Shown here: positions 4,174 through 17,101 of the stretch, in pieces
Layout of the letters: every line of letters begins with the position of its first letter
Numbering within the stretch: the first letter of the stretch is position 1
Origin: a virus
DNA length: 24,686 nucleotides
Strand: one strand, 5' to 3'
IMG/VR virus record: IMGVR_UViG_3300047362_001285
Location: 1 to 24,686 of that record
Made by a program: the position numbers and the translations under genes
Notes under the pieces: generated by a model
The model's input: only the letters and a program-made list of their open reading frames with translations
What the model was told of the DNA's origin: nothing
The model's database searches: none

Positions 4174-4803
4174 TTAGTTTATTTTAATAATATGTCCACC
4201 TGCTTGAAAATTTGGTACGATTAAACGCTCAACCAGGCTTAGCTCGTCTGGATGTATAAATGCAGAACCAAACACTAATCTCTCTGTGAGATTACCGGTG
4301 AATTCTTCAGGTATATGCCAATCTCCAGCATCAAATACTACTGCTCTACCAGGTTTATTTTTAATTAACGTCGCCTCTTGCATAAATTTTCTTTTATTTG
4401 TGCCAGCTGGAGTATTTAATCTTGTAGGTTTATAATTTTTTCCTTCACTAAAATATGTACCACCGCCCCATTCATTATTCCACTCATAATTCAAATAAAT
4501 TAAAATACGTTTTACTTTACCGTTAATTTGTTCTATAGCATCAGAAGTAAAATCTTGGTGTGGTAGCATAGTAGGTTTGTCTGGTACAAATCTAAATATA
4601 AATCTTAAATCGTGCCAACGATACCAATCTTTGTAAATGTGATTATAATGAGATAATATTTTTTCAGATATTTTTTTATCTTTTAAATATGCATCATGTA
4701 ATAATCTTTTTGCAGTATCTTTGTGGCTATAATCATATTTTTGTTGAGTAAATTCTAAATTGTTAAGAAATTCTACATCTTCAATATCGAATACTTCTAT
4801 CAT
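4174..4803 (-). CDS. 2-oxoglutarate/Fe(II)-dependent oxygenase
   Basis: A 209-aa protein with the facial triad of the 2OG-Fe(II) dioxygenase superfamily: His82 and Asp84 in PHQDFTSD, His163 in DAGDWHIPEE, and Arg175 in NLTERLVFGS as the expected 2-oxoglutarate anchor. The GGGTYF segment at about 113-118 fits the core jelly-roll strand of prolyl-hydroxylase-like members. Such enzymes hydroxylate proteins, lipids or small molecules; the substrate here is unknown. The start at 4803 is chosen because ATGA overlaps the stop of the ketoacyl synthase gene; a start nine codons upstream would lie inside that gene. As last gene of the envelope/lipid operon it may act on a product of that pathway, which is inference. 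Confidence 0.85.
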   Translation of the reverse strand: MIEVFDIEDVEFLNNLEFTQQKYDYSHKDTAKRLLHDAYLKDKKISEKILSHYNHIYKDWYRWHDLRFIFRFVPDKPTMLPHQDFTSDAIEQINGKVKRILIYLNYEWNNEWGGGTYFSEGKNYKPTRLNTPAGTNKRKFMQEATLIKNKPGRAVVFDAGDWHIPEEFTGNLTERLVFGSAFIHPDELSLVERLIVPNFQAGGHIIKIN

Positions 4804-5942
4804 GCTGAACCTATAACTAATGATGCACACTTACCACCAAAGCCAAAAGAATTATTCATTACAAAATCAACATTTGTTTTAAGAGGAGATCTTACTACAT
4901 TTTCATATTCTGTATTTATGCAGTTGTAAGTATGCGGTATAATATTATGTTGTATTGATAAAATAGAATAAATTGTTTCTAAAATACCAGCAGCAGCAAA
5001 CGTATGACCAATCTTTCCTTTGTTTGAAGTAACTAATAAATCGCCTATATCTTGAATAGCTTCATATTCTACTTTATCTCCAACTGGAGTTGATGTGCCA
5101 TGGGCATTTACATAATCTACAGTATCTACTTCTGCATTATCTAAAGCCTTATTCATGACAATTCTTGCTCCGCTTCCGCTTGGATTTGTACGGTCAAATG
5201 CATCAGAGGCATGTGCAACTGGATATAACCATGCGTGAATTCTTGCACCGCGAGCAATAGCCTTCTCTTCACTTTCTAATATCATACATCCGCCGCCTTC
5301 ACCCATAACAAATCCATCACGATTATTATCGAATGGCATAGATTTATTACCTAATGCCCGTAAACTAGAAAATACTTCTAAATCAACCTCATTAATTCCG
5401 TTATCTGAACCACCGCAGATTACATAATCATATTCATCAATAAATCTCATTGCTATATCAATACTAACGATACCAGTTGCACACGCTGCTTGAGCTGCAA
5501 AATTGACGCCAGTAGTTCCATAATATTGTGATATTAAACTTGCTGCTGAATCACATGGTTGATTCAATGCTTTTAACGGATGCATTCTTTCTCTGATAAC
5601 CATATCAAACAAACCGTTTTTACTACAGCACGTAGAATAAAAAACTCCTACATTTTCACTAATATCAATTTTAGAATCTAATAAAGCTTGATGAGTGCTA
5701 TGTAATGCATAGCACATAGATCTAGGCATATTTTTTAATAGCTTAGTGTTAAAATCTTCTGGATAAATATTTTCACTGGTAGGGATATGGCAATTATTTA
5801 CTTTGATTTGTTTACGCGGTACGACAATATCTTCAAAGGGTTTATCGTATGAATTATTATCTAATAAGTTATCGAAACATTGGACAGAATTATTGCCCAA
5901 TGCATCGATCATACCAATACCTGTAACGGCTACTCTTTTCAT
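4800..5942 (-). CDS. Beta-ketoacyl-[ACP] synthase, KAS I/II (FabB/FabF) type
   Basis: A 380-aa condensing enzyme that would extend acyl-ACP by two carbons with malonyl-ACP. The catalytic triad is visible: Cys154 in QAACATGIVS, His281 in NAHGTSTPVGD and His313 in SNKGKIGHTFAAAG, with Lys308 at the family's conserved lysine position. The C-terminal NNSFGFGG (363-370) is the KAS gating loop. The N-terminus (RVAVTGIGMIDALG) is also family-typical. It is slightly shorter than bacterial FabF (about 412 aa). It overlaps neighbours on both sides by 4 nt (ATGA), so it is coupled to the lipoprotein and the oxygenase. Such a gene is rare in phages. A polyketide-type condensing enzyme is the alternative, since no chain-length factor or ACP gene is nearby. 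Confidence 0.93.
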   Translation of the reverse strand: MKRVAVTGIGMIDALGNNSVQCFDNLLDNNSYDKPFEDIVVPRKQIKVNNCHIPTSENIYPEDFNTKLLKNMPRSMCYALHSTHQALLDSKIDISENVGVFYSTCCSKNGLFDMVIRERMHPLKALNQPCDSAASLISQYYGTTGVNFAAQAACATGIVSIDIAMRFIDEYDYVICGGSDNGINEVDLEVFSSLRALGNKSMPFDNNRDGFVMGEGGGCMILESEEKAIARGARIHAWLYPVAHASDAFDRTNPSGSGARIVMNKALDNAEVDTVDYVNAHGTSTPVGDKVEYEAIQDIGDLLVTSNKGKIGHTFAAAGILETIYSILSIQHNIIPHTYNCINTEYENVVRSPLKTNVDFVMNNSFGFGGKCASLVIGSA

Positions 5943-6565
5943 GAATCGGCAAGCACCTCTAGTTCTTTAAGATCGGCTTCGTTTTGAGTTTCGACATTAT
6001 TATCGAGTTCTTTCCAAGCTTGAGTAGATCTAAGCTTTGATAGTAATGCAGCATTTTTAGCTACTCGAGTTCGAATAACATTTGCAGCAACTTCATTGCG
6101 ATACTCAAGCAAAACGTATGATCGATATTGTGTGCCGTTTTGTACGATTACATTTTCTTTAATTGTGTAACCAGCAACGTCAGCATCTGCAATAAGATTA
6201 CGCGTAACTTGTTCAAACTCAACAGCAACATTAGAATCAAAATCAGTAGCACCTAATTTTGATTTAAACGTTTTAAGCTGAGATCGAATACGACTATCAA
6301 CACGATCAGCGAGAGTGGTCTTAGCTGATAGTACTGCGATATCTACTGCGAGTTGAAGATCTGGTGTGACTGCAGTACCAACTGCATATACAGCGTCATC
6401 TTCTTTTGGGATATTTGTATACCACTTAGGCATATCATCAATTTGTTTTTCGACTTGTTCAGTACGATATTCAAATTCTTTTTCAGACATTACCAAATTT
6501 GGTGGTAATTTATCACTACATGCAGATAGACCTAATACACCTGCCATTAACAAAACACTTCTCAT
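5939..6565 (-). CDS. LPP20-like lipoprotein
   Basis: A 208-aa lipoprotein starting MRSVLLMAGVLGLSAC, a classic signal peptide with a lipobox (LSAC) and lipidated Cys16, so it would be anchored in the host envelope. The body (PKWYTNIP, AVYAVGTAV, then LADRVDSRIRSQL and a VLLEYR strand) resembles the LPP20 lipoprotein family. The start at 6565 is preferred over an in-frame ATG at 6577 because that upstream ATG is part of the TGGAG ribosome-binding site. It starts one base after the 42-aa gene stops and overlaps the ketoacyl synthase start by 4 nt. Phage-encoded lipoproteins often alter envelope properties or block superinfection; neither is shown here. Confidence 0.82.
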   Translation of the reverse strand: MRSVLLMAGVLGLSACSDKLPPNLVMSEKEFEYRTEQVEKQIDDMPKWYTNIPKEDDAVYAVGTAVTPDLQLAVDIAVLSAKTTLADRVDSRIRSQLKTFKSKLGATDFDSNVAVEFEQVTRNLIADADVAGYTIKENVIVQNGTQYRSYVLLEYRNEVAANVIRTRVAKNAALLSKLRSTQAWKELDNNVETQNEADLKELEVLADS

Positions 6566-6566
6566 T

Positions 6567-6695
6567 TTATACTCCATTTAATCCATCAACAATAAAGTCT
6601 CTCAAACCAGAATCGACAAATAGATTCTGCATATCTGGGAAAAACACTGTCATACCTATACCTATAACAATTCCCAAGCACATATTAATCATCAT
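6567..6695 (-). CDS. Mini membrane protein (42 aa)
   Basis: ATG at 6695 with AGGAG four bases upstream; 42 codons then TAA. The N-terminal 20 residues are hydrophobic and Gly/Ile-rich (CLGIVIGIGMTVFF), a probable single transmembrane helix, followed by a short polar tail ending DFIVDGLNGV. Both ends are coupled: ATGA overlap with the upstream exported protein, and a one-base gap to the lipoprotein start. The tight fit between genes is the main evidence that it is real. Function is unknown. Confidence 0.72.
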   Translation of the reverse strand: MMINMCLGIVIGIGMTVFFPDMQNLFVDSGLRDFIVDGLNGV

Positions 6696-6970
6696 AAAAC
6701 TCCTAGACTTAATACTACTTCTAACAACTTACTGATACTTTGATTGTTTTCTTCAGCACCAAATAAGAATTCACCTACACCACGATCCTTTGATGGCATT
6801 TCTTTCTCGATAACAACAACCTTTGGAGGTGATTTACAATCATATTTTTTAATATCATTGATAACCGATCCATCTGAATAGGTTGTTTGTTGCGAATAGA
6901 AACAATCTTGTGCGTAAGCACTAGTTCCAATCGTTATCCATAGCAACAGTATCGCGCATCTTATCGCCAT
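6692..6970 (-). CDS. Small exported protein with two cysteines (92 aa)
   Basis: Starts at ATG 6970, preceded by CGGAG. Residues 1-20 form a Sec signal peptide ending in SAYA before QDC. The mature part has two Cys (about residues 23 and 45) flanking a YSDGSVINDIKKYD segment, so a disulfide in the periplasm is possible, then a charged middle and a hydrophobic C-terminus (LLEVVLSLGVL). The frame is open a further 35 codons upstream, but that extension is basic, has no ribosome-binding site and lies inside the 81-aa gene. It is part of the envelope-directed operon. Function is unknown. Confidence 0.75.
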   Translation of the reverse strand: MAIRCAILLLWITIGTSAYAQDCFYSQQTTYSDGSVINDIKKYDCKSPPKVVVIEKEMPSKDRGVGEFLFGAEENNQSISKLLEVVLSLGVL

Positions 6971-7166
6971 AATATTTCTCCGCATATTGTGGCGCATCTT
7001 GCCAGTGGTTGTAGTTTTCGTCAAGATCTTGACCCTTTTTAGGTTCAACTTCTTGGCGAGTATAATAAGCTTCACGCTTTTTCATTGCAGCCAATCTTTT
7101 AGATGCAGCACGGATAGCATCCATACGCTCTTCATAAGTCGACTCTTTAGTGATAACAATAGCCAT
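6921..7166 (-). CDS. Conserved hypothetical phage protein (81 aa)
   Basis: A charged helical N-terminus (RMDAIRAASKRLAAMKKREAYY) is followed by an acidic, aromatic-rich tail (HWQDAPQYAEKYYGDK). No known domain is recognised. The ribosome-binding site GGGAGG lies about nine bases before ATG 7166. It overlaps the next gene start by 50 nt and follows the 68-aa gene with a one-base gap. Confidence 0.8.
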   Translation of the reverse strand: MAIVITKESTYEERMDAIRAASKRLAAMKKREAYYTRQEVEPKKGQDLDENYNHWQDAPQYAEKYYGDKMRDTVAMDNDWN

Positions 7167-7167
7167 A

Positions 7168-7374
7168 TTAGTTTCCTCCCAATTGTACAGTCATTTCATA
7201 CCAAACATCTTCGATAATGTCAGAAATTTCTTGGCCACTTAAATGTGGCACCATGCTAAAAGCTTTAATTGTTCTCTTAGCATACTCTTCGAATGATTCA
7301 GAATCAATTGCAATACCAGCACACTTATCAATGAACTGCTCTTCAACATCCATAACATAACTTGACATACCCAT
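7168..7374 (-). CDS. Conserved hypothetical phage protein (68 aa)
   Basis: A short acidic helical protein (SFEEYAKRTIKAF, then SGQEISDIIEDVWYEMTVQLGG). No known motif. Its ATG at 7374 shares one base with the TAA of the preceding 38-aa gene. The compact head-to-tail arrangement in the operon from promoter 7798-7826 supports it. Confidence 0.78.
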   Translation of the reverse strand: MGMSSYVMDVEEQFIDKCAGIAIDSESFEEYAKRTIKAFSMVPHLSGQEISDIIEDVWYEMTVQLGGN

Positions 7375-7490
7375 TATTCTACCTCCTCAACATCAATACC
7401 ATAATATTCTTTTGGATCTACTTCGAAACGACCACACTCAGACAAATAAGGATTTTCAATCCAAATACCGTTAAACTCAAAACCTTCCAT
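7374..7490 (-). CDS. Mini protein (38 aa) with FNGIWIENPYLSECGRFEVDP motif
   Basis: ATG at 7490 and TAA at 7376-7374 give a 38-aa product. Both ends share a single base with the neighbouring genes (TAATG on each side), which is strong evidence for a translated gene. The sequence is dense in aromatic and acidic residues, and its central WIENPYLSECG resembles a short conserved protein I recall from marine T4-like phages. Function is unknown; a small protein-binding inhibitor or adaptor is possible. Confidence 0.75.
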   Translation of the reverse strand: MEGFEFNGIWIENPYLSECGRFEVDPKEYYGIDVEEVE

Positions 7491-7762
7491 TATCGCACCT
7501 CATAACCAAGATTATCATAAACCCAATCTTCACCAAGATCAGCAGCAAAAGCCATAACAACACCTTCGCGCGGATGTGTATCCATACGATCGATAAAGCT
7601 ACGAAGAGAACCCATATGGCCACGCTTATACCGATATTTGGCTTCGATCACGTCATTGCGATCTTCAGCATACATTTCAGCCATATCGTTGTCAACACCC
7701 ATAAATTCAACGTGGGCATTCCAAAGATTCTTTTCTAGCTTTGTAAGATTTTCTAAAAACAT
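7490..7762 (-). CDS. Conserved hypothetical phage protein (90 aa), first gene of the envelope/lipid operon
   Basis: Start chosen at ATG 7762, six bases after GAGGAG. An in-frame ATG at 7786 would put that ribosome-binding site inside the gene and lies in the conserved leader. The protein is helical and charged (TKLEKNLWNAHVEFM, then AEMYAEDRNDVIEAKYRYKRG) and ends with a less charged stretch containing GEDWVYDNLGY. No catalytic motif. It lies directly downstream of the TGTACA-type promoter at 7798-7826, so it is likely expressed early. Confidence 0.8.
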   Translation of the reverse strand: MFLENLTKLEKNLWNAHVEFMGVDNDMAEMYAEDRNDVIEAKYRYKRGHMGSLRSFIDRMDTHPREGVVMAFAADLGEDWVYDNLGYEVR

Positions 7763-7797
7763 TTTTTGCTCCTCAGCTTTCTTCATTTTATAGATCT

Positions 7798-7826
7798 ATT
7801 ATACCCTGTTTTTTTAGGTTTGTACA
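7798..7826 (-). promoter_or_regulatory. TGTACA-type promoter for the envelope/lipid operon
   Basis: -35 TGTACA (7826-7821), 17-nt spacer, consensus -10 TATAAT (7803-7798), followed by AGATCTATAAAATGAA and a leader ending AGCTGAGGAGC, nearly identical to the leader of the promoter at 3598-3626. It would drive about ten genes from 7762 to 4174. Confidence 0.85.
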
Positions 7827-7862
7827 CAAAAAAACGCACTTTGTTTTCGAATAAAAACAAAG
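7827..7862 (-). terminator. Intrinsic terminator after the 87-aa gene
   Basis: On the minus strand CTTTGTTTT, a six-base loop TATTCG and AAAACAAAG form a 9-bp stem (7862-7839), followed by TGCG and seven T. It ends exactly where the next promoter's -35 begins, so one unit stops and the next starts. The stem is AT-rich, hence moderate confidence. Confidence 0.6.
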
Positions 7863-7888
7863 GCTTATCATTTTTTTTAAAAAAAGTT

Positions 7889-8152
7889 TTAAGACTGATA
7901 GATTTTGCGAAGCAAATCTTCGAATTGGTCTACTTTTTCTACACGATTTGGCCATAAAATATAATCCTTTTCGGGATTTTTCTTCAAATTATTGAGCAAA
8001 GGAGTAATAGCATTGTATAACTTATCAAGTTTTTCTTGATTAGTATTAGCTTTTACTTCAACATCTCCTTTTGCCTTTTCTGCATCTTGTACTGCTTGTA
8101 GTTCTGTTTCATCTACAGCGGTAAAACCGAAATCGAACATGTCATCAGACAT
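7889..8152 (-). CDS. Conserved phage protein (87 aa) with FDFGFTAVDE and KDYILWPNR motifs
   Basis: The acidic N-terminus (MFDFGFTAVDETELQAV) and C-terminal segment (NLKKNPEKDYILWPNRVEKV) match a pattern I recall from conserved hypothetical proteins of marine T4-like phages. No enzymatic function is known to me. The ATG at 8152 follows AGGAGAATGGGAA. It overlaps the 47-aa gene by 8 nt and is followed by an intrinsic terminator, so it is the last gene of the unit that also carries the tRNA. Confidence 0.85.
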   Translation of the reverse strand: MSDDMFDFGFTAVDETELQAVQDAEKAKGDVEVKANTNQEKLDKLYNAITPLLNNLKKNPEKDYILWPNRVEKVDQFEDLLRKIYQS

Positions 8153-8288
8153 TTCCCATTCTCCTTTGATGTGCGTAATTTACAAATATAACCCAACCAA
8201 CAATAGCCCACATAATACTATGAATTAGTCCTTGAGATATGACCCAAGCAAACATTGAAACCATAATATGGTCATACCATTTTAACAT
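8145..8288 (-). CDS. Mini membrane protein (47 aa)
   Basis: ATG at 8288 follows AGAGGAAGTTAA. The 47-aa product is mostly hydrophobic and Trp-rich: MVSMFAWVISQGLIH, then SIMWAIVGWVIFVNY, which can form two short or one long transmembrane segment, ending in basic HQRR. The stop TGA overlaps the next start by 8 nt. It lies 16 nt downstream of the tRNA 3' end. Function is unknown; its size and topology would suit a small envelope-acting or holin-accessory protein. Confidence 0.7.
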   Translation of the reverse strand: MLKWYDHIMVSMFAWVISQGLIHSIMWAIVGWVIFVNYAHQRRMGNV

Positions 8289-8304
8289 TTAACTTCCTCT
8301 AACT

Positions 8305-8381
8305 TGGCGATTCCGGTAGGATTCGAACCCACGACCCACAGCTTAGAAGGCTGTTGCTCTATCCATCTGAGCTACGGAACC
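8305..8381 (-). tRNA. tRNA-Arg (anticodon UCU), CCA encoded
   Basis: The cloverleaf folds by eye: acceptor GGTTCCG pairs with CGGAATC (one G-U), discriminator G, encoded CCA at 8307-8305. The D arm is TAGCTCAGATGGATAGAGC, the anticodon loop CTTCTAA gives anticodon TCT, and the T arm contains GGTTCGAATCC. It reads AGA (and AGG by wobble), codons favoured in AT-rich phage genes but often rare in hosts. It is transcribed with the neighbouring small genes, so its 5' and 3' ends must be processed from a longer RNA. Confidence 0.96.
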
Positions 8382-8639
8382 AAAAATCCGGGTGGGGCTA
8401 ACCATGGCCCCACATGCACTTATTAGGGAGTGACCCCTTATTAAGCAGAGCTCTCGTATGAATGAGAGGTGCGTTCTCCTTTGTTGTGAGTCTTTCTAAT
8501 GAGGGCACTCTATAATTCCCACCTGCGTCTTAAATTTAAAGTCGTTTACAGGCTTAACCGCGTTATACCGCTCGACTATAGGATTAGCAAAATCGCATCA
8601 ACTGAGAGAGGAGCGAGACAGGAGCGATTTTGCTAAACT
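8382..8639 (-). ncRNA. Candidate structured non-coding RNA region between a small gene and tRNA-Arg
   Basis: About 258 nt with no credible reading frame. It is visibly more GC-rich than neighbouring genes (hand count about 30 of 60 in 8401-8460). On the minus strand it contains, in order: a 13-bp hairpin (8636-8584); AGTCG pairing with CGACT around two mini-hairpins (GCG-CGC and GG-CC); CTCTC-GAGAG; and GTGGGGC-GCCCCAC (8413-8392) followed by a T5 run before the tRNA. An AAAGGAG lacks a following start codon. Structure and composition suggest a functional RNA. I recognise no known family, and no tmRNA or riboswitch core is evident. Confidence 0.4.
8584..8636. repeat. Perfect 13-bp inverted repeat with 27-nt loop
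   Basis: TTAGCAAAATCGC (8584-8596) and its exact reverse complement (8624-8636) flank a purine-rich loop with GAGAGAGGAGCGAGACAGGA. It starts immediately after the stop of the 77-aa gene. No T-run follows on either strand, so it is not a standard intrinsic terminator; RNA-end protection or a processing site is possible. Confidence 0.8.
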
Positions 8640-8873
8640 CTACCACATCCACTCAACTTCGATACCAAACTCTGGTTCTGCTTCATTTTGTTGAGTAACA
8701 TGGTTAAATCCACTATTATGATATGTTTTTAGATTGATAAGTTTTTTACCAGACTTTTCATATTCCTCTCTAAGTTCTGCAAACTTATCTGTAAGACTTA
8801 CACCATCACCATTATATTCGTTAAATGGATGCGTTGTAAAATAAGAACCTAATATTTCTGAAGTTCTTTCCAT
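8640..8873 (-). CDS. Hypothetical phage protein (77 aa)
   Basis: A soluble protein with a helical, charged centre (LTDKFAELREEYEKSGKKLI) and an acidic C-terminus (EAEPEFGIEVEWMW). I do not recognise it. The ATG at 8873 shares one base with the stop of the upstream 118-aa gene, and the gene ends at the base of the 13-bp hairpin. Second gene of the unit from promoter 9263-9291. Confidence 0.75.
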   Translation of the reverse strand: MERTSEILGSYFTTHPFNEYNGDGVSLTDKFAELREEYEKSGKKLINLKTYHNSGFNHVTQQNEAEPEFGIEVEWMW

Positions 8874-9229
8874 TATGCTGCATCCTCACACCATGCATTT
8901 TCTACTTCCATGACTGGATCTGGATTATGATCATAGTTAGAATTGAATCTTTCATAAGCCACATTCAAATCGTCCATAGTGCAACAAAGGCTTAGCAAAT
9001 ACCGAGCATTGCCCTTTGATGTTAAGTTAGCAATATAGTCAAACAGACCATAGTACTCCATCTGGTATTCGTACTGCTCGACAGTAGTAATACCCTGATC
9101 TGCCCAATGTGCAGGATCAGTGACAGTCATGCCATAAAAAGAACCAGGATTCTCATCCATCCACTTCTTACCTTCAGCATTCTTAGCTTCGATGTGGGCT
9201 TGCAATTCGATTTGTGATTTAGTAAACAT
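8873..9229 (-). CDS. Hypothetical phage protein (118 aa)
   Basis: ATG at 9229 with GAGGAG six bases upstream. The N-terminal half is helical and charged (FTKSQIELQAHIEAKNAEGKK); the middle holds MTVTDPAHWADQGITTVEQY, followed by EYQMEYYGLFDYIANLT; it ends acidic (CEDAA). Four Cys are scattered without a clear metal motif. Function is unknown. It is the first gene after a TGTACA-type promoter, so probably an early gene. Confidence 0.8.
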   Translation of the reverse strand: MFTKSQIELQAHIEAKNAEGKKWMDENPGSFYGMTVTDPAHWADQGITTVEQYEYQMEYYGLFDYIANLTSKGNARYLLSLCCTMDDLNVAYERFNSNYDHNPDPVMEVENAWCEDAA

Positions 9230-9262
9230 TTAAGGCTCCTCTTCCTTCTTTATTGTAGGACC

Positions 9263-9291
9263 ATTATACCCTGTTTTTACCGATTTGTACA
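9263..9291 (-). promoter_or_regulatory. TGTACA-type promoter for the tRNA/structured-RNA unit
   Basis: -35 TGTACA (9291-9286), 17-nt spacer, -10 TATAAT (9268-9263), preceded by ATGCGTTTTAGGCAT and followed by a leader with AGAGGAG. It drives the 118-aa and 77-aa genes, the structured region, tRNA-Arg, and the 47- and 87-aa genes up to the terminator at 7827-7862. Confidence 0.85.
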
Positions 9292-9310
9292 TGCCTAAAA
9301 CGCATTTTTT

Positions 9311-10114
9311 TTAATTTATTCGAAATAAATCTGGTAAATTCATCCATTCTTTCCAATTAGTAGCATAAGCTTCTTCATAATCGAACATAATTTCTATTGA
9401 CTCTATATATTCTATTCTTTCAGGAGGAGTAGAAGAACTATAACCAACATCAATCAGACCCCAAGATCTTGGTTTAATATTATTATTTGCGCACCACTTT
9501 TCAGCCTTTGAATCAAATGGCTTATGTTTATCGTGGGCATATATGATTGTAAAGTCTGCAGACCAATGAGATTGATTAACAATCTTTTCTGCAAATGAGT
9601 CGTTATCATGATATATGTCATACATAGGTTTACCTACGTGGCAATAATTAATACAAACTGTACCAGGTTTTTGGTTAAAATTAAATCTCGCTTGCATTGA
9701 TTCATCTAATAAAAACTTATCAGGATTTTTAAAAGAACAGACAATGCGTTTACTATTAATACTTTCAAGATGGTGAATATTTACGTTATACTTAATAATG
9801 TTATCTTGTATTAATCGCGGAGCTTTATTAAAAAACTCTGGTTCCATCATTCTTTCGAAGTGTGTATGAAGCTCGTTTAGATCTTCAGTATCTGGTAAAT
9901 CTTCATAAAATTTTATAAGACCTACTGATTTGCGAAGTTTTTCATAAATTTTTTCATATGTTATTTCATCATTCAAACCATAAATTCTATCACGTTCCCA
10001 TATATTATTAATATTTTTTCTTACTTCATTGAACCATCTTTGACTTAGTTCATCATCGTATGGATATATGTCAATAGATTCATCATTATCAAATTTCAGT
10101 CTTAGATAATACAT
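9311..10114 (-). CDS. Unknown phage protein (267 aa) with multiple His/Asp clusters
   Basis: A soluble acidic protein without signal peptide or membrane segment. The first 65 residues are highly charged and helical; then come ELHTHFERMM, IHHLESIN, INYCHVGKPMYDIYHDND and IIYAHDKHKPFD, giving several His/Asp clusters that could hold a metal. I cannot assign it to a family. It is the last gene of the unit with the zincin, SWIM protein and desaturase, overlapping the desaturase by 26 nt, so a role linked to lipid modification is possible but unproven. Confidence 0.82.
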   Translation of the reverse strand: MYYLRLKFDNDESIDIYPYDDELSQRWFNEVRKNINNIWERDRIYGLNDEITYEKIYEKLRKSVGLIKFYEDLPDTEDLNELHTHFERMMEPEFFNKAPRLIQDNIIKYNVNIHHLESINSKRIVCSFKNPDKFLLDESMQARFNFNQKPGTVCINYCHVGKPMYDIYHDNDSFAEKIVNQSHWSADFTIIYAHDKHKPFDSKAEKWCANNNIKPRSWGLIDVGYSSSTPPERIEYIESIEIMFDYEEAYATNWKEWMNLPDLFRIN

Positions 10115-10937
10115 CTAATTTTTTGCCTTTAATTTCAATAACACCTATTTTGCCTAATAATTCCATAAATCTTGATGAATAATCTAACCAACCAGGATTA
10201 AAACTATACGCATATGGTTTAGCGTGGTGTTCCTCATGATACATACCTTCTGGATCTCCAAATGATAAAACCCACAAGTACCATGGAATGCTTCGTGTTT
10301 TAGCTTTTGTTTTATGAGCATAAGCATCAATAACACCTAATCCATGAAATTCTAAACAAGATGCTGCAGCTAAAACACTAAGGCCTTCTATACCGAAAAA
10401 AAGAATAATTAATGACCATAACGTAAAAGCAATGAATTTAGGGTAAAGACTGAAAACCCACAAATGTTTATAATTTTTTAATAAGTCGATATATATTTTT
10501 CTATTAAGTTGATCTTTATTTACTGTAGCACCCCATAAATGAAAATGTGCAGCAAACATACCAATCTGTGAAGGGCTATGTAGATCTAATTTATCGTCTA
10601 AGTGATCGTGATGTAATCTATGTGCAATTGCCCATTCAATAGGACCAGTTGGAAACATATGCCCAGAAACTGAAAGATATGAAGTTAGCAATACATCAAT
10701 TGTTTTACTTTTAAATTTCCAGTGACCATGAGAAATGCCCTTATGCAAAAATGAAGACACAGTAAAAGCTTGCAATTGAAACAAACCAAATGCAATAGCT
10801 AATAACCAGTATGCTTCATTCACGTAAATACTATTATAAAAGAAATATACAGTTAATACGTGAGTTGCGATTGCAATGAACAATCTCTCTGGATAATGCA
10901 AAAATTTAGGTAATATTTTTTTTAAGTTGATACCCAT
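10089..10937 (-). CDS. Membrane fatty-acid desaturase (delta-9/acyl-lipid type)
   Basis: A 282-aa di-iron integral membrane enzyme that would introduce a cis double bond into acyl chains using O2 and an electron donor. All three histidine boxes are present: HKGISH (65-70, HX4H), HRLHH (106-110, HXXHH) and HEEHH (234-238, HXXHH). A HGLGVIDAYAH segment lies at 198-208. Hydrophobic segments at about 17-37, 42-62, 80-95 and 165-205 fit the four-helix topology. The length suits bacterial acyl-CoA/acyl-lipid desaturases. No ferredoxin or reductase gene is nearby, so host electron donors would be needed. It overlaps both neighbours (16 and 26 nt) in the unit driven from 11582-11610. Confidence 0.93.
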   Translation of the reverse strand: MGINLKKILPKFLHYPERLFIAIATHVLTVYFFYNSIYVNEAYWLLAIAFGLFQLQAFTVSSFLHKGISHGHWKFKSKTIDVLLTSYLSVSGHMFPTGPIEWAIAHRLHHDHLDDKLDLHSPSQIGMFAAHFHLWGATVNKDQLNRKIYIDLLKNYKHLWVFSLYPKFIAFTLWSLIILFFGIEGLSVLAAASCLEFHGLGVIDAYAHKTKAKTRSIPWYLWVLSFGDPEGMYHEEHHAKPYAYSFNPGWLDYSSRFMELLGKIGVIEIKGKKLDVLSKTEI

Positions 10938-11146
10938 TTATTTGAAATTTCCTTTGTATGCTTACATTTTCCGTGTACTGCCATACCAATACATTCACAC
11001 GAAAAACCTTTATCTGTGAATACTACTGTATATTTATCACCGCGACTTCCAACAATAGAATATTCAATACCAACAGCCCAGTGGTTTTTGAAATTAATTT
11101 CTGGTATAGTAAGGTATTTATCTCTAAATTTACGCGACATACTCAT
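10922..11146 (-). CDS. SWIM-type zinc-finger mini protein (74 aa)
   Basis: Cys50 and Cys52 (CEC), eight residues, then Cys61-Lys-His63 match the SWIM zinc-finger consensus CxCxnCxH, with the preceding strands YTVVFTDKGFSCEC typical of the fold. SWIM fingers bind nucleic acids or proteins and are usually parts of larger proteins; a stand-alone 74-aa version is unusual. The basic N-terminus (SRKFRDKY) fits nucleic-acid contact. It overlaps the zincin by 17 nt and the desaturase by 16 nt. Confidence 0.78.
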   Translation of the reverse strand: MSMSRKFRDKYLTIPEINFKNHWAVGIEYSIVGSRGDKYTVVFTDKGFSCECIGMAVHGKCKHTKEISNKWVST

Positions 11147-11555
11147 ACTCCTTAAATAATTCTTCTTGTAAATAATATGCTTCAGCTTCCCACGGTTGGG
11201 CCATATACTCTTTTGTTGTACTCGTAATACAAATATATTCTACACCACACCAAGTTTTTGTACAAAATCCAGTGTCAATTAACTCTTTACGTGCACCTTG
11301 TTTGACATGTACAATCTCATGAAAAATTGCAGTAATCATATCATCTTCATCGATACCTTTTTGTATCTCAATTTCAAATGTACGGTTATCAACCTGTAAA
11401 CAATAACCGTCAACTGTGTCATAGATATTCTTAATCTCAATAGTAATATCTAATGTCTTCATGCGTGGCATAAGTTTGTGCACAGCAAATTCTGCAGCTT
11501 CTATACAAAGCTTACGTTCTTTTGCTGTACCACCAATTACTTCAATAATATTCAT
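11130..11555 (-). CDS. Zincin-like metalloprotease (HExxH)
   Basis: 141 aa with HEIVH at 79-83 in the helix MITAIFHEIVHVKQG, the catalytic zinc motif of gluzincin-type peptidases, and a downstream PWEAEAY (121-127) giving Glu123 as a likely third ligand. No signal peptide is present, so it should act in the cytoplasm. Small zincins of this kind occur in many phages with unknown targets. The ATG at 11555 follows GAGGAG at good spacing. First gene of the unit under promoter 11582-11610, hence probably early. Whether it is proteolytic or only structural is not determined by sequence. Confidence 0.8.
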   Translation of the reverse strand: MNIIEVIGGTAKERKLCIEAAEFAVHKLMPRMKTLDITIEIKNIYDTVDGYCLQVDNRTFEIEIQKGIDEDDMITAIFHEIVHVKQGARKELIDTGFCTKTWCGVEYICITSTTKEYMAQPWEAEAYYLQEELFKEYEYVA

Positions 11556-11581
11556 GATTGCTCCTCTTTCATTATGGATCT

Positions 11582-11610
11582 ATTATACCCTATAATGCAA
11601 GCAATGTACA
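11582..11610 (-). promoter_or_regulatory. TGTACA-type promoter for the zincin/desaturase unit
   Basis: -35 TGTACA (11610-11605), 17-nt spacer, -10 TATAAT (11587-11582), followed by AGATCCATAATGAAAGAGGAG and the zincin start. The leader closely matches that of the promoter at 17830-17858. Confidence 0.85.
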
Positions 11611-11619
11611 TGTTTATTT

Positions 11620-12243
11620 TTACTTATGAACTTCTATTTCGACATTATCTGATGGCTTAAACTTAAGCTTATCGTGTTTATGATGTAATACAAACTTAAC
11701 GCGGTGATGCTTACCGGTGCCATCAAAATCTTTAAACATATTTTTCCATAGTGGTCGCCAGTTATTTGCAAGACGATGGTTATTCATACCACCTCTATCA
11801 GAGTTTATAACAAGATCTGTGTAACTACGTAAATTAAAATCAAATATAGAATCAAATCCCCAAAGATGTACTTCATCAGCTTTTAATTTCTCACATGCAT
11901 AATAAGTTGCCATATGACCGCAATTCAAATCTGTATAGTTAGCAGCGTATTTAGGTAGTTTAGTATAGAATTCTTTAATTTGACCTGCAATTTGTAGATG
12001 AAATTTAGGATTTCTATTACAATATTCTTTTGGCCGTGCACCACAAATCCATTCTCCAGGTACTTGAATTTCTCCTTTATGAATAGTATTCATCATTTTA
12101 AAGTCTACAATACAAGTAGCATATACTCCTTCAACTTCAAACGGTGCCAAGTTACATGTAAGCTTGAGACCTTTTCTTTTTGGAACTTCATTATAAAATG
12201 CAGCTGAATCACCATTTCCAATTACTTGTACAATTCTTGGCAT
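11620..12243 (-). CDS. Rossmann-like protein, possible sugar or nucleotide transferase (207 aa)
   Basis: The N-terminus IVQVIGNGDSAAFY looks like a nucleotide-binding beta-loop-alpha start, and a later stretch CGHMATYYACEKLKADEV followed by HLWGFDS resembles the core of DUF115/MptE-like and GT42-type enzymes. The C-terminus is basic and His-rich (TGKHHRVKFVLHHKHDKLK). The match is by pattern only. It is the last gene of the glycan block and abuts the GT8-like gene with a TAATG overlap, which favours a role in glycan building. Unknown function remains possible. Confidence 0.55.
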   Translation of the reverse strand: MPRIVQVIGNGDSAAFYNEVPKRKGLKLTCNLAPFEVEGVYATCIVDFKMMNTIHKGEIQVPGEWICGARPKEYCNRNPKFHLQIAGQIKEFYTKLPKYAANYTDLNCGHMATYYACEKLKADEVHLWGFDSIFDFNLRSYTDLVINSDRGGMNNHRLANNWRPLWKNMFKDFDGTGKHHRVKFVLHHKHDKLKFKPSDNVEIEVHK

Positions 12244-12899
12244 TACATCATACTCCTAATTGTATCATTACCTTTTTCGCCAGTCCAATGCATAATTTTA
12301 ATTCTACCATTATAATTATCCTGTTCAACTTGCAACCGCATAACGTTATACTCATTTGGTAACGGATTAATATTAGCTAGCTGAGTAATTGGATTCAACA
12401 TAGAGTGCAACATTTCTTGATCACCAATATTTTGTTGAGCATGAACTACATTACACCATTGCGCTAATACAGTAGGTTTATCGATATAGCCTACAACACC
12501 AGAATTATACCAAACTTCGCCGCGGCGTTTAGTCCATGGTTTATCTTCAACCATATTTAACATATTTGGTTTTAGCATAGAAAACATATTGTCAATATTT
12601 GCTAGAACTTGGCAATCAGTATCTAACCATACAGCTCTTTTTGCTGGAACATGATACATGGATAATGGCTTTTTAAACCAGCCTCGTTCTTTACCTTTGG
12701 TATCCATAGTCATAATGGCTTCAACACAGGGGTGTTTTACTACTTTGTTCACCATATCTTGTGACATACCAAAATCTGTAATTATAATTTTTGTTTTATT
12801 TCTCTGTTTCTTGAAATTCTTAAGAAACCATGGCAACTGCCATTCAGTTTTATGGTCACAGCCAGTTACAAACAATTCATCTCTAATTTTCTTATTCAT
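12243..12899 (-). CDS. GT-A fold glycosyltransferase, family 8-like (218 aa)
   Basis: The DxD metal/nucleotide-sugar motif is D93-T-D95 in AVWLDTDCQVLANID; WYNSGVVGY, GDQEML and IMHWTG follow in the order seen in GT8-type enzymes. It probably transfers a hexose from an NDP-sugar; donor and acceptor are unknown. The start at 12899 (ATG, sharing one base with the preceding TGA) is preferred over an in-frame TTG one codon upstream. Soluble, no membrane segment. Part of the contiguous glycan block 11620-16355. Confidence 0.8.
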   Translation of the reverse strand: MNKKIRDELFVTGCDHKTEWQLPWFLKNFKKQRNKTKIIITDFGMSQDMVNKVVKHPCVEAIMTMDTKGKERGWFKKPLSMYHVPAKRAVWLDTDCQVLANIDNMFSMLKPNMLNMVEDKPWTKRRGEVWYNSGVVGYIDKPTVLAQWCNVVHAQQNIGDQEMLHSMLNPITQLANINPLPNEYNVMRLQVEQDNYNGRIKIMHWTGEKGNDTIRSMM

Positions 12900-13543
12900 C
12901 AAATAATCTCGTATGTTTCATCATATCTATGTTTAGCCAAGCAACCAGCTTCTTTTTGAATAGTAGTAAAAGAATCTGAAGCTATACAAATCCATGGATA
13001 TAATTCTTCTAGCCATGGAAATAAATTCAAATTCAAAAATACATCTGTTGGAGCTGCTTCTATTTTAGCTTTTTCCATTAACTCTTTAGCACCTTTTGGA
13101 CTTACTATATATCCATGTGCTCCACCGAAATATTGTTTTTGTACTAAACCATCAACTCCAATTTTCATTGGAGTATTAAATTTGCCATAAGATGGTTTTG
13201 AAAATGTAATTACTTTATTAAATTTAAAGTCTGTTGGTAATGAACCTGTAACTACAGCATCATGCTCGAAGATGATAATATCTTCATTTGTATCTACAGC
13301 TTTTTTCCATAAATTATAATGAGATAAAAATGCAGCAACAGTATTATCTAATCTAGAATATTTTTCTACAAATCCGTGGGGTGAAATACCTAATTTATGA
13401 ATTAATTCAATAGGTCTATCTGATGGTGTTATTGCTTTAAATTTTTCAATTGCAAATCCATACTTTTTTCCAGATTTAATGCATCTGTTAGCGGCTTGTA
13501 CTGATTTCTCAATTGACTCAATAGTAATTACAAAGGCTTTCAT
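12899..13543 (-). CDS. Glycosyltransferase family 25-like protein, copy A (214 aa)
   Basis: Begins MKAFVITIESIEKS, a GT25 (LPS-type beta-glycosyltransferase) start, with AFLSHYNLWKKA at 71-82 and the acidic motif E93-H-D95 at the place where GT25 enzymes usually have E(D/E)D. A GGAHGYIVSPKGAKEL segment also fits the family. It is paralogous to the next gene, which shares MKA(F/Y)VITI and SHYxLW. The middle His in the acidic motif is a deviation shared by both copies. It likely adds a sugar to a surface glycan; donor unknown. Confidence 0.8.
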   Translation of the reverse strand: MKAFVITIESIEKSVQAANRCIKSGKKYGFAIEKFKAITPSDRPIELIHKLGISPHGFVEKYSRLDNTVAAFLSHYNLWKKAVDTNEDIIIFEHDAVVTGSLPTDFKFNKVITFSKPSYGKFNTPMKIGVDGLVQKQYFGGAHGYIVSPKGAKELMEKAKIEAAPTDVFLNLNLFPWLEELYPWICIASDSFTTIQKEAGCLAKHRYDETYEII

Positions 13544-13545
13544 TT

Positions 13546-14241
13546 TTAATCCGTAGTAGTTGAAGGTAATCCTTGAACAAATGTATAATATTGCTTAGTC
13601 ACACCCATTCTTTTGACCAATTGTTTACACATAATTGCGTCATTAGGCCATAATCCATAATCTTCGACTGCAGCAATTACAGCACTAGCTCCTTTAGGTT
13701 TAATTATATATGCGCTGTTTCCAGCTAAACCCTGCGGAACATCGAATGAATCCACATTTGGAATTTTGCAGATGTCTGTCTTACAATTTTTTACAATTGA
13801 ATCAAACTGACGTGATCTACGAGTTGCACCAATAGGATCATTTAAACCAATAATATTATATTTTGATTGAAGGATATAATCAGGATTAAGTTTTTTTCTA
13901 AATTGTGCATCATGTTCTAATACTAAAATTGGTTCATTTTCATTTTGGCATTTTTGCCATAATCTATAATGACTTACTGCACACGAAACTCTTGCTAATG
14001 GATCTCTTGTTTGATACGCAGATAATCGTAATCCAGTTTTAAGACAAGTTTCTTCACCTTCCCATGGATAATCCCATTGAATTCCATAATCTGACATTAC
14101 TTCGCCGCAATCAATAGGTGTACTAGCTTCAAATTTTTCAATCGTAAAATCATTGCCTACTTGTTCAGATGAGGCTATACAATTTTCAGCTGCAGCTTCT
14201 GACAATGTATGACCTAATATTGTAATCACATATGCTTTCAT
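13546..14241 (-). CDS. Glycosyltransferase family 25-like protein, copy B (231 aa)
   Basis: A second GT25-like protein in tandem: MKAYVITILG at the start, AVSHYRLWQKC at about 88-98, acidic motif E109-H-D111, and NSAYIIKPKGASAV. Compared with copy A it has an insertion near residues 50-80. The arrangement suggests a duplication followed by divergence, perhaps for two successive linkages. It starts inside an ATGA overlap with the methyltransferase stop and is separated from copy A by two bases. Confidence 0.8.
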   Translation of the reverse strand: MKAYVITILGHTLSEAAAENCIASSEQVGNDFTIEKFEASTPIDCGEVMSDYGIQWDYPWEGEETCLKTGLRLSAYQTRDPLARVSCAVSHYRLWQKCQNENEPILVLEHDAQFRKKLNPDYILQSKYNIIGLNDPIGATRRSRQFDSIVKNCKTDICKIPNVDSFDVPQGLAGNSAYIIKPKGASAVIAAVEDYGLWPNDAIMCKQLVKRMGVTKQYYTFVQGLPSTTTD

Positions 14242-14870
14242 GATCTTAACTCAATGATATAACTATCTGGTTGTTTAGTTAATTTACGGTTATCATGTCG
14301 TAAAACTCTCAAGTCAGATTGCTCTAGTGCATTCAAGAACAGTTGATTATCCATAGAATTATATCGATCAGGATATCGTTGCAACCATTGATGTTCTAGT
14401 TCTTTATCATTCATTAATTCTAAAGGCCAAACATCTTCAATAAAATAAACACCTTCTTTTTTTAGCAATCTCTTAAGATTTAAAAAGGTTTCTTTATTTG
14501 CTGTTGGTGTATGCATACCATCATCAATGATAATATCAAACTTTACGGACTTACCAAACTTATCACGAATTTGTTTGTAAACTGTAGTGTCCATACTACT
14601 AGCTTTAATCCACTGTGTTCTATCTTTTTTATAACACTCGAGATCTTCTGGATTTGTGCGAGTAAAAATATCTAAACCATATAATTCAGCGTGTGGAAAA
14701 TATTCGTGCAAAGCCTCAGTGCTATGACCATTAAATACACCAATTTCTAAGATTCGCAAATCAGTTTTATTTTTTAGTTTTTTAAACACAGGTTCATAGA
14801 TTTTTTCGTATCGGTGTTTTCTAGTCTTATCACATCCATACTTATTAAATAGATTTCCGAGCTCACTCAT
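14238..14870 (-). CDS. Class I SAM-dependent methyltransferase (210 aa)
   Basis: Motif I LEIGVFNGHS (41-50) binds S-adenosylmethionine, with the acidic residue of motif II in GLDIF (about 65-69) and IIIDDGMH (113-120) as motif IV. The pattern resembles the sugar O-methyltransferases/cephalosporin-hydroxylase-like group acting in polysaccharide or antibiotic pathways. Its place between GT25 genes and a sulfotransferase makes a sugar O-methyltransferase the best guess. Overlaps: 8 nt with the sulfotransferase, 4 nt with GT25 copy B. Confidence 0.83.
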   Translation of the reverse strand: MSELGNLFNKYGCDKTRKHRYEKIYEPVFKKLKNKTDLRILEIGVFNGHSTEALHEYFPHAELYGLDIFTRTNPEDLECYKKDRTQWIKASSMDTTVYKQIRDKFGKSVKFDIIIDDGMHTPTANKETFLNLKRLLKKEGVYFIEDVWPLELMNDKELEHQWLQRYPDRYNSMDNQLFLNALEQSDLRVLRHDNRKLTKQPDSYIIELRS

Positions 14871-15567
14871 TATCTAGTCTCCAATAATTTTTAGTTGGTC
14901 CACTATCAAAATCAAATCCCCACATATCAATATCTTTTTTATACCAATCAGCAATGATTTGAATTGTTTCTTTGTTGTACATATCTTTATATGTACCCTC
15001 ATTCAAAGCGGTCACATTCCTATTTCGTCCCATCATAGGAATGTTAAAATATCTTATAAGATCTTCTTTCAAATGATCTAATCTTAGCATATCGCACACT
15101 AGTTTACCATTAGAATCGGTGACGTAATCAGCAGCCGGATACCACCCTCTGACTGCTCTATGCCACATATATTCTTTATCACCCCATTTATGACGCTCTT
15201 CTAGAAAAGCTTCAAACGATGAGGTATCAGCATATCCAGGATTTTGCTTTTTTTCAATTTCAATAACCTTTTTAGCAAAGAAATATCTTGAAACTACTCT
15301 ATCCCATGGATTACGAATAACTGCAAAAGCATCGTGTACCTTTGTAAATTTTTCATGAAGATCCACCCATCGTGCATGCTGAATGCCGTGATGATCTCCT
15401 AATTCTTTCATTGTTTTAAGTAAACCGTTTGTGTATTGTTTACTTTTGTGTATACGTGCATCAGCAGCAATAATATTATCTTTTACTAATAAACTATGCC
15501 TAACGGTCATACCAGCATTTTTTGGAATATGAATAAATATTTTTTTAGAAATGTCGCTTATGTTCAT
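14863..15567 (-). CDS. Sulfotransferase, carbohydrate-type (234 aa)
   Basis: Both PAPS-binding elements are present: the 5'-phosphosulfate loop IPKNAGMT (14-21) and the 3'-phosphate motif IRNPWDRVVSRYFF (84-97). They have the form of the sulfotransferase family 2 enzymes that sulfate sugars. No signal peptide, so it would act in the cytoplasm on nucleotide- or lipid-linked glycans. It requires PAPS from the host. Phage sulfotransferases are uncommon. It overlaps the GT8-like gene by 4 nt upstream and the methyltransferase by 8 nt downstream, so the set is translationally coupled. Confidence 0.87.
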   Translation of the reverse strand: MNISDISKKIFIHIPKNAGMTVRHSLLVKDNIIAADARIHKSKQYTNGLLKTMKELGDHHGIQHARWVDLHEKFTKVHDAFAVIRNPWDRVVSRYFFAKKVIEIEKKQNPGYADTSSFEAFLEERHKWGDKEYMWHRAVRGWYPAADYVTDSNGKLVCDMLRLDHLKEDLIRYFNIPMMGRNRNVTALNEGTYKDMYNKETIQIIADWYKKDIDMWGFDFDSGPTKNYWRLDNE

Positions 15568-16355
15568 ACTTTAGTCATTAGCTCCTTTACGTTTTCGCCC
15601 TTGTTTGGTAATTTGTCTTTTAAGAAAAAATGTACAAAGTTTGCTTCTTTTACCTTATCAGATTTAACTGCAGTAAAGAGAGCGTTCCATTTCCAATTGA
15701 GTCTTTGCACGTTCATACCGCATGTATTTACCCAGTAATTAAGTAACGTCTGATCTGTAGACCATTTCCATGGTCCTACACCATCAACGAATTGTTTAAA
15801 TTCTGATCTACGTATAAACTGTTCTGGCGTTTGATTATTAAGATATTTGGCAAATGACTTATTCATTACCATCATTCCCATATTCATAAATGGAAATCCA
15901 GTTTTATCGTTGTATTGACCATTCCATGCAGGAATCTTAAGAGTTCCGTATTGCATGCGAGAATACCCCAATATTTTTTGATTATACCATGGCTCAATTG
16001 GCATTTCGCTTTCAACCACACCGCCAAAATCTACATCAGCATCTATTTCTAAAAATATATCAGGTGCACCAGGACGAATCCAAATATCTGCATCAATGAT
16101 TGCAATTTGATCATAGTCTTTAAAATAAGAAAAGGCGTTTTCCTTCTCAAAGATTGGAAGAAAACCGCCATGTTTCTCGTAAGATTCTTTACTACGCCCT
16201 GTCATGAAGATGTCAGGTTTGATACGCAACTTAGGAACAGTTTGTATTACATGATCAATATCATGCGTATCGCAATATGCTTTTACTGATTTAATACAAT
16301 GATCATATAGTTTAGATTTCGCGCCTACTGCGACTTGATAAATCATTCTTTTCAT
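15564..16355 (-). CDS. GT-A fold glycosyltransferase (263 aa), first gene of the glycan block
   Basis: The DxD motif is D88-A-D90 in IAIIDADIWIRPGAP. FMNMGMMVMNKS and STDQTLLNYW correspond to the NxG and DQ motifs of GT8-like enzymes. It is not closely similar by eye to the other GT8-like protein at 12243, apart from these motifs. Soluble. The ATG at 16355 follows AGAGGTTATT. Donor and acceptor are unknown; the neighbours suggest it starts or extends a glycan that is then methylated and sulfated. Confidence 0.8.
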   Translation of the reverse strand: MKRMIYQVAVGAKSKLYDHCIKSVKAYCDTHDIDHVIQTVPKLRIKPDIFMTGRSKESYEKHGGFLPIFEKENAFSYFKDYDQIAIIDADIWIRPGAPDIFLEIDADVDFGGVVESEMPIEPWYNQKILGYSRMQYGTLKIPAWNGQYNDKTGFPFMNMGMMVMNKSFAKYLNNQTPEQFIRRSEFKQFVDGVGPWKWSTDQTLLNYWVNTCGMNVQRLNWKWNALFTAVKSDKVKEANFVHFFLKDKLPNKGENVKELMTKV

Positions 16356-16363
16356 AATAACCT

Positions 16364-16564
16364 CTAATAACGAAGTAGATAGTCCCAGTGGCCTTCAATT
16401 CTAATACAGACCCAATCTCGCTTCATAGTCCTAAAATCATACTTAAATTCTTGTTCAGTTTTTGCAAAATAACAATTATTCAAGCCTTCGAATATATCTA
16501 TACTTTCAGCAACTGGTTCACCATTAACGATAGTAACCATTACTAGTAACCACTTAACCATCAT
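16364..16564 (-). CDS. Small protein with N-terminal hydrophobic segment (66 aa)
   Basis: MMVKWLLVMVTIVNG is a short hydrophobic start that may be a signal anchor; the rest carries two Cys (NNCYFAKT, DWVCIRI) and an aromatic C-terminus. Both Cys could pair in the periplasm if exported. Function is unknown. It overlaps the EF-hand gene by 4 nt (ATGA). Resembles small envelope proteins of marine phages in style only. Confidence 0.7.
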   Translation of the reverse strand: MMVKWLLVMVTIVNGEPVAESIDIFEGLNNCYFAKTEQEFKYDFRTMKRDWVCIRIEGHWDYLLRY

Positions 16565-16908
16565 TTTTTAGGTGATGGTTTTTTACCCTTTACGGCATCT
16601 GCACCAAAAAATGCAGCAACCAATACAGAAATAGATACAAAATATGTTGGAGCAATATCGCTAATTAATTCTGCAGCTTTATCTTGACCAGCTAAAGTTG
16701 TAATTAAAATAATTGCTGGATATAATAGCATTCCGAATAATGCAAACCATGTCATTTTTCTCATGGCATCTCTTTGTGCATCGGCATCCTCAAGTTCTTT
16801 TCTTTTAAACTCAAGATGCATTTCAAGTTCTTTAGGACTGATATGACCATCACCATTGGTATCAGCTTCATCCAGTCCACTCACTGTTTTTACAGTCGTC
16901 TCTGACAT
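16561..16908 (-). CDS. EF-hand protein with two transmembrane helices (115 aa)
   Basis: From ATG 16908 (GGAG seven bases upstream) the protein has one canonical EF-hand loop, DTNGDGHISPKE at 16-27, with all calcium-ligand positions intact; a charged helix (HLEFKRKELEDADAQRDAM); then two hydrophobic helices at about 54-73 and 85-104 and a Lys-rich tail. I recall similar proteins as conserved hypotheticals in marine T4-like phages. A holin or Ca2+-sensing membrane role is possible but unproven. Upstream in-frame codons were not used because they lie in the 77-aa gene and lack a ribosome-binding site. Confidence 0.82.
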   Translation of the reverse strand: MSETTVKTVSGLDEADTNGDGHISPKELEMHLEFKRKELEDADAQRDAMRKMTWFALFGMLLYPAIILITTLAGQDKAAELISDIAPTYFVSISVLVAAFFGADAVKGKKPSPKK

Positions 16909-17101
16909 TTTCGTACTCCGTAATGATTGCTTCAGCAATCTCCATAGCTTCTCTGAAATCATTACGAAGTGAATTGGATCTATGTCCATTTTCAACAAAA
17001 TGCTTTAGACTATATATATCAGAACCGTACGAATCAAGTTTGAATTCTTCAGTAATTTGTTCAAACCTTGTACGAAGATTCATCATTTCAGTTAGTGACA
17101 T
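16868..17101 (-). CDS. Hypothetical phage protein (77 aa)
   Basis: An acidic helical protein (NLRTRFEQITEEFKLDSY, then DFREAMEIAEAIITEYENV) with no recognised motif. Start ATG 17101 overlaps the nucleotidase stop by 10 nt and has AAAGGGC upstream; a second ATG six codons later is possible. It overlaps the EF-hand start by 41 nt. Confidence 0.72.
   Translation of the reverse strand: MSLTEMMNLRTRFEQITEEFKLDSYGSDIYSLKHFVENGHRSNSLRNDFREAMEIAEAIITEYENVRDDCKNSEWTG

Follow-up and report, generated by a model that had tools for sequence, protein, structure and literature searches.

What is known of how bacterial viruses handle lipids comes chiefly from scattered desaturases and from fab genes recorded at the level of annotation. 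Fatty acid desaturases encoded by cyanophages were reportedly described by Roitman in 2018. Freshwater SAR11 myophages (fonsimyophages) are described in one sentence as carrying fabF, a stearoyl-CoA desaturase and a 2OGFeDO, and the passages devoted to them contain no catalytic, structural or phylogenetic analysis and no mention of ACP, holo-ACP synthase (AcpS) or FabI (PMC7029224). In Arctic viruses, desaturases of the SCD/Des type were proposed to raise membrane fluidity, and that article uses no term for beta-ketoacyl-ACP synthase (KAS), oxoacyl or ACP (PMC7300359). Three predicted prophages of Rhodobacteraceae carry fabG-acpP-fabF (PMC8224337), fabF, fabG and fabZ were recorded in viromes from 1,000 m (PMC10653327), and passages of two other articles mention fabF among viral genes (PMC12783922, PMC5704599).

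In this study, a KAS gene was analysed in a virus record of 24,686 bases (IMGVR_UViG_3300047362_001285), the whole of which is called the window. The record is of T4-like make, with genes for gp32 (PF08804, 137.7 bits), the T4 RNase H C-terminal domain (52.8 bits), SegE (117 bits) and PhoH (157.7 bits); its gp32 shares 58.4% identity with the gp32 of Phage C48C1 and 55.6% with that of Methylophilales phage Melnitz. It is probably a partial genome of a T4-like phage. By name, the three gene types of the window also occur together in the fonsimyophages, which are T4-like as well (PMC7029224). The Rhodobacteraceae prophages are alike in having a phage-borne fabF, theirs with acpP and, in the passages describing it, in the order of the E. 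coli fab cluster, whereas the gene studied here belongs to a virus-type clade of T4-like and large phages (PMC8224337). The trio of fabF, desaturase and 2OG gene is thus already in print; the viral KAS clade and the fuller cassettes with FabI, AcpS or ACP beside a viral KAS were not found in the open-licence literature.

Identity and Predicted Structure of the Probable Condensing Enzyme

The KAS gene (4800-5942, minus strand, ATG start) encodes 380 amino acids, compared with 406-413 in E. coli FabB and FabF, and matches PF00109 (97.7 bits) and PF02801 (93.1 bits) over its full length, against cut-offs of 20.8 bits. As the earlier note had read from the letters, Cys154 (AACATG), His281 (NAHGTST), Lys308 (SNKGK) and His313 (IGHT) are all present in family context. 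They align with E. coli FabF C163, H303, K335 and H340, whose numbering and catalytic roles we take to be the standard ones. The fold, the two Pfam domains, the Cys-His-His set with its Lys and the GFGG gating loop with the equivalent of F400 are common to the viral protein and FabF/FabB. Further residues are the gate F368 and the virus signature K371-C372 together with K310.

In the NCBIfam scan, FabF (TIGR03150) was the top match at 259.1 bits, below its cut-off of 493.75, and the window KAS reached no equivalog cut-off; because of this score, it was not filed as FabF. The cispentacin protein AmcF matched over the full length (130.6 bits, cut-off 325). A PHROGs search returned one weak family of unknown function, and BFVD returned two KS-type phage proteins with 24% and 20% identity. 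In the acyl pocket (the FabF G107/I108/F133/T137 region), the viral clade has different residues; the alignment is loose in this part, and for this reason no chain length is claimed for the viral KAS.

A first model of the window KAS, built from 15 sequences, reached a pLDDT of only 70 and was superseded by one built with 50 viral sequences (pLDDT 91.5, pTM 0.94). FabF enzymes were its top matches in a Foldseek search of the PDB (e.g., 4b7v_A, TM 0.94, 1.9 A), and VIA-align 2 superposed it on S. pneumoniae FabF 2rjt_A over 377 residues (Z 56.6, 1.8 A), with other FabFs tied. The modelled protein has the thiolase-like KAS fold. Within the window's own lineage, dN/dS was 0.036-0.19 (21 pairs from 7 sequences), so the ORF is not a chance one, and these sequence comparisons place the gene under purifying selection.

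Residues and model together indicate that the protein is very likely a functional condensing enzyme. A non-condensing relative, either a chain-length factor or a malonyl-ACP decarboxylase partner, could be argued from the divergence from FabF (259 bits against the equivalog cut-off of 493.75) and from the lack of any second KAS subunit in the window's record. We consider it very improbable, as every virus-type row (38/38) aligned with 18 cellular KASs retained the nucleophile Cys, the two His, the Lys and the Phe of the gate. Chain-length factors typically lack the nucleophile Cys and pair with a ketosynthase; the chain-length factor was ruled out by the Cys in all 38 rows. By every defining feature tested in sequence and model, the window protein is a KAS, and by cut-off and tree it is not FabF.

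Phylogenetic Position and Distribution

IMG/VR was scanned for KAS genes, yielding 8, 22 and then the best 80 of 142 matching viral contigs; merged without repeats, the set comprised at least 89 loci plus the window, one of which (L024) was a contig from a Deinococcales MAG. Proteins shorter than 341 aa and rows more than 90% identical were excluded from the tree (IQ-TREE), leaving 56 rows. The 38 virus-type rows consisted of 37 viral ones and L024, where the gene lies between bacterial genes. The 18 cellular rows, named from their records or by short labels given here, covered FabF, FabB, NodE, type II PKS KS, aryl-polyene type and archaeal KAS.

One branch with 100/100 support split the 38 virus-type KASs from the 18 cellular rows, and the window KAS fell outside the cellular FabF and FabB clades; with so few cellular sequences sampled, a closer sister among cellular KASs may exist. 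The comparison with FabB, FabF and polyketide synthases that had been proposed for this gene thus gave a separate virus-type clade and not a place among chain-length factors. Viral proteins carry K-C after GFGG, whereas cellular ones mostly carry T/H-N: among virus-type rows with letters there, K followed GFGG in 37/37 and C came next in 35/37, while N stood at the second place in 16 of the 18 cellular rows. The position of FabF M337 is likewise K in 37 of the 38 virus-type rows. Window-type KASs reached at most about 34% identity to the cellular homologues found, in contrast to 39-100% among the other viral matches listed.

Among 50,697 isolate phage records, 29 matched the window KAS (best identity 32.9%) and 28 matched a second viral query, L012 (best 31.1%); judged by identity, none of these records holds a virus-type KAS. 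Most matches in that collection look like cellular FabF/FabB, which could favour reading the window gene as stray host DNA or an assembly chimera. That reading is hardly conceivable given the viral clade and the 4-bp overlaps of the gene with its neighbours, and the stray or host-derived gene was refuted by the independent contigs L002-L010, which have the same phage neighbours, together with the viral clade. The earlier assignment of the gene to the phage therefore stands. On these sequence grounds, the window KAS was not copied from a host, and virus-type KASs make up a large family that is all but confined to viruses.

A bacterial branch was also seen, with virus-type KASs in 3 of 111 genomes of the phylum of the L024 MAG (544-556 bits). 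In L024 (2606-3865), L208 and L210, the gene lies among bacterial genes in three different places, where the neighbours, read by eye, were sodA, divIVA and yggS (L024), ilvD (L208) and ychF (L210). The presence of virus-type KASs in bacterial genomes means that transfer between phage and host occurred, in either direction.

Genomic Context in the Window

The tight coupling of the KAS gene to lipoprotein and oxygenase genes, claimed from the sequence alone, was found as a 4-bp overlap on each side. The KAS stop overlaps the ATG at 4803 of a 2OG-Fe(II) oxygenase-like gene (4174-4803, minus strand, 209 aa) with an HQD motif and a distal H; according to the ORF list, translation could also begin at an earlier GTG (4830). 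The match of this oxygenase (4174-4806) to PF13640 (2OG-FeII_Oxy_3) is marginal, at 27.2 bits against a cut-off of 27. The KAS start overlaps the stop, at 5939, of a lipoprotein-like gene (5939-6577, minus strand, 212 aa) whose lipobox, LSAC, was read from the sequence. It matched no Pfam or PHROG family, and relatives (cluster 22) lie directly upstream of the KAS in 13 loci.

No ACP was found in the window with PF00550 and a profile of phage ACPs, in agreement with the earlier note, in a 24.7-kb record that is probably a fragment. No malonyl-CoA:ACP transacylase family appeared among the 28 larger window ORFs scanned with Pfam, and the window holds no FabI/FabG-type SDR, AcpS, MaoC-type hydratase, soluble acyl-ACP desaturase or ACP-domain protein.

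Elsewhere in the window, glycosyltransferase (GT8, GT25), methyltransferase and sulfotransferase genes form a run at 12243-16355, several overlapping by a few bases, and this run likely serves surface-glycan editing. A tRNA-Arg (TCT) gene lies at 8305-8381 (minus strand). A small protein (16561-16998, minus strand) has an EF-hand-like stretch (24.0 bits, under the cut-off) and a membrane-like C-terminal half.

Recurrent Association with a Membrane Desaturase

The best clue to the function of the KAS is a gene for a stearoyl-CoA-desaturase-like membrane protein (10089-10937, minus strand, 282 aa), about 4.1 kb upstream of the KAS on the same strand. The earlier interpretation held as far as a full-length KAS I/II-type condensing enzyme in a phage is concerned, by sequence and model, and it overlooked this desaturase. 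Three histidine boxes and the extra His of the stearoyl-CoA type are present (H65/H70, H106/H109/H110, H208, H234/H237/H238), and these histidines were invariant in 16/16 sequences. Searched against the PDB, a profile of 16 phage desaturases (A3) retrieved SCD1 of human (7.4e-20) and of mouse (1.2e-17). The score of the window protein against PF00487 (FA_desaturase) was 24.5 bits, under the cut-off of 29.7, which 8 of 46 records exceeded, and it had no match among the 50,697 phage records. The 3' end of its gene is overlapped by a gene for a protein of 267 aa and unknown function (9311-10114, minus strand), which belongs to no Pfam, PHROG or NCBIfam family and whose counterpart also adjoins the desaturase in L006 and L010.

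Profile A3 matched in 20 of the 48 KAS records searched; the other 28, including the 333-kb record of L016, gave no desaturase relative, and the L042-L078 group, one of the largest of the KAS groups, had no desaturase near its KAS. In the reverse direction, 80 viral desaturase loci were recovered, 29 of them with a KAS in the stored flank. Among the 41 best-scoring loci, 28 extended 5.9 kb or more downstream, and every one of them had a KAS on the same strand 2.3-7.8 kb downstream, a count that does not represent 28 independent cases because the profile was made from KAS-linked desaturases and many loci are near copies. The other 13 had at most 5.6 kb downstream and a KAS in none, and the remaining 39 desaturase loci had a KAS in 1.

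Gene order is a better argument for the pairing than this linkage count. In the window group, among others, the desaturase gene precedes the KAS gene; it follows the KAS gene in L040, L059 and L079, and in L089 it is downstream on the opposite strand. States were assigned manually to 29 of the 38 rows, and on this basis the arrangement changed at least 8 times on the KAS tree; from this varied order, KAS and desaturase seem either to have been paired anew or to have stayed paired while genes were rearranged. Two desaturase genes stand in tandem upstream of the KAS in L041 (3134-4688) and L080 (997-2629).

Gene Content of Related Phages

Fuller gene sets were found in relatives. An apparent operon in L092 (3666-10801) comprises genes for ACP, 2OG oxygenases, KAS, a soluble acyl-ACP desaturase and PhyH. 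The ACP, of 85 aa and with the motif DLGVDSLDL (PF00550, 33.5 bits), is encoded 4 kb upstream of the KAS; two of the four 2OG-like genes scored, at 42.2 and 26.6 bits (cut-off 27); the soluble desaturase gene (PF03405, 177.6 bits) overlaps the KAS stop; and PhyH scored 78.2 bits. In a marine lineage (L129, L132, L139, L145-L149 and kin), AcpS turned up (8 of 49 records), as did a FabI-like enoyl-ACP reductase (7 of 46); in the three records where it was read, a protein of 321-326 aa has an ACP-like DSLD domain. L132, from a 117-kb marine phage record, encodes FabI, AcpS, an SCD-like desaturase, two HxD proteins and the KAS within about 6.2 kb (7138-13292); its FabI-like protein (7138-7899) fell below the FabI cut-off, with 261.5 bits, and its top PDB chains were of FabI type only. 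The ACP-domain protein is encoded elsewhere in the same record (L191, 2293-3273). In L089, a MaoC-type hydratase gene lies near the KAS (28.6 bits).

Use of host ACP, as the earlier note had proposed, is plausible for the fragment. Relatives, however, encode an ACP, an ACP-domain protein and holo-ACP synthase, so the window's phage may carry an ACP gene of its own outside this fragment.

The replacement of FabI in one lineage could also suggest a substitution, by which the phage KAS would sustain acyl synthesis if infection led to inhibition or breakdown of host FabB/FabF and would make no special product. The virus-only K371, C372 and K310, near the active site, could alter binding of an inhibitor or regulator. 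This explanation leaves the recurrent desaturase unaccounted for and calls for a host factor against KAS, none of which is known here, and we regard it as unlikely.

Other neighbours vary from branch to branch. Three 2OG-like genes follow the KAS in a row in L017, one of which scored (PF05118, 51.6 bits), and in L103, a series of AspH/2OG-like paralogues lies on both sides of the KAS (11297-14857 and 5864-7980). The same locus has a gene (10218-11300) for which an amidinotransferase reading, from the sequence type, was set aside, as it matched no Pfam or NCBIfam family. A class-III aminotransferase gene (5934-7010, 116.6 bits) stands between desaturase and KAS in L010, a close relative of the window, and L059 has a radical SAM gene.

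From such neighbours, it could be argued that the KAS makes a dedicated acyl product and not bulk membrane lipid, such as an acylated small molecule, an acyl group of lipopolysaccharide or a modification of a virion component or lipoprotein, which the oxygenases and the transferases of relatives would decorate. The 2OG/AspH-like genes that flank the KAS in several branches (the window, L017, L092 and L103) leave room for hydroxylated or other special chains, and the aminotransferase of L010, the radical SAM gene of L059 and the full-length match to AmcF, weak as it is at 130.6 bits against 325, point the same way. Yet the extra enzymes differ by branch, 2OG oxygenases are common in such phages, and the presence of FabI, AcpS, ACP and two desaturase types speaks for ordinary fatty acids, making a dedicated product rather unlikely.

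A Proposed Model of Lipid Remodelling

The reading that we prefer, at a probability of roughly 60%, is that the phage KAS elongates acyl-ACP, that the SCD-like desaturase also acts and that lipids of the infected cell are remodelled. In the FabF/FabB family, an acyl chain is transferred to the Cys, malonyl-ACP is decarboxylated and condensation follows. By analogy, Cys154 would take the acyl chain from acyl-ACP, and His281 and His313 would decarboxylate malonyl-ACP, the carbanion attacking the acyl thioester to give a beta-ketoacyl-ACP two carbons longer. In the window's phage, ACP and the reduction and dehydration steps would be mainly supplied by the host, as none of these is seen in the window fragment. 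The lengthened chain, or chains generally, would then be desaturated by the phage membrane desaturase, and the 2OG oxygenases may perhaps hydroxylate chains, which together would shift the length and unsaturation of the infected cell's lipids during phage replication. We infer enzyme activity, chain length, coupling of KAS and desaturase, and benefit to the phage alike; the intact family, the residues, the fold, the viral clade, the selection on the gene, the recurrent desaturase neighbours and the FabI, AcpS and ACP-like genes of relatives are consistent with remodelling.

A bolder version of lipid remodelling, which we hold only tentatively, is that these phages run a type II fatty-acid line of their own, with KAS, FabI, an ACP-domain protein charged by phage AcpS and a desaturase. 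Such a line might produce an acyl chain in an amount that the host itself would not reach, and the window would be a reduced form leaning on host enzymes.

Implications

The K-C signature offers a simple marker for the virus-type KAS family in metagenomes and metatranscriptomes. The findings also make testable the question of whether phage enzymes alter the length and unsaturation of membrane acyl chains in infection. The sequences analysed here suggest that remodelling of host-cell fats is widespread among uncultured phages; a virus-dedicated KAS clade, recurrently near desaturases and, in one lineage, near FabI and AcpS, would imply active construction of acyl chains by many uncultured phages of aquatic habitats.
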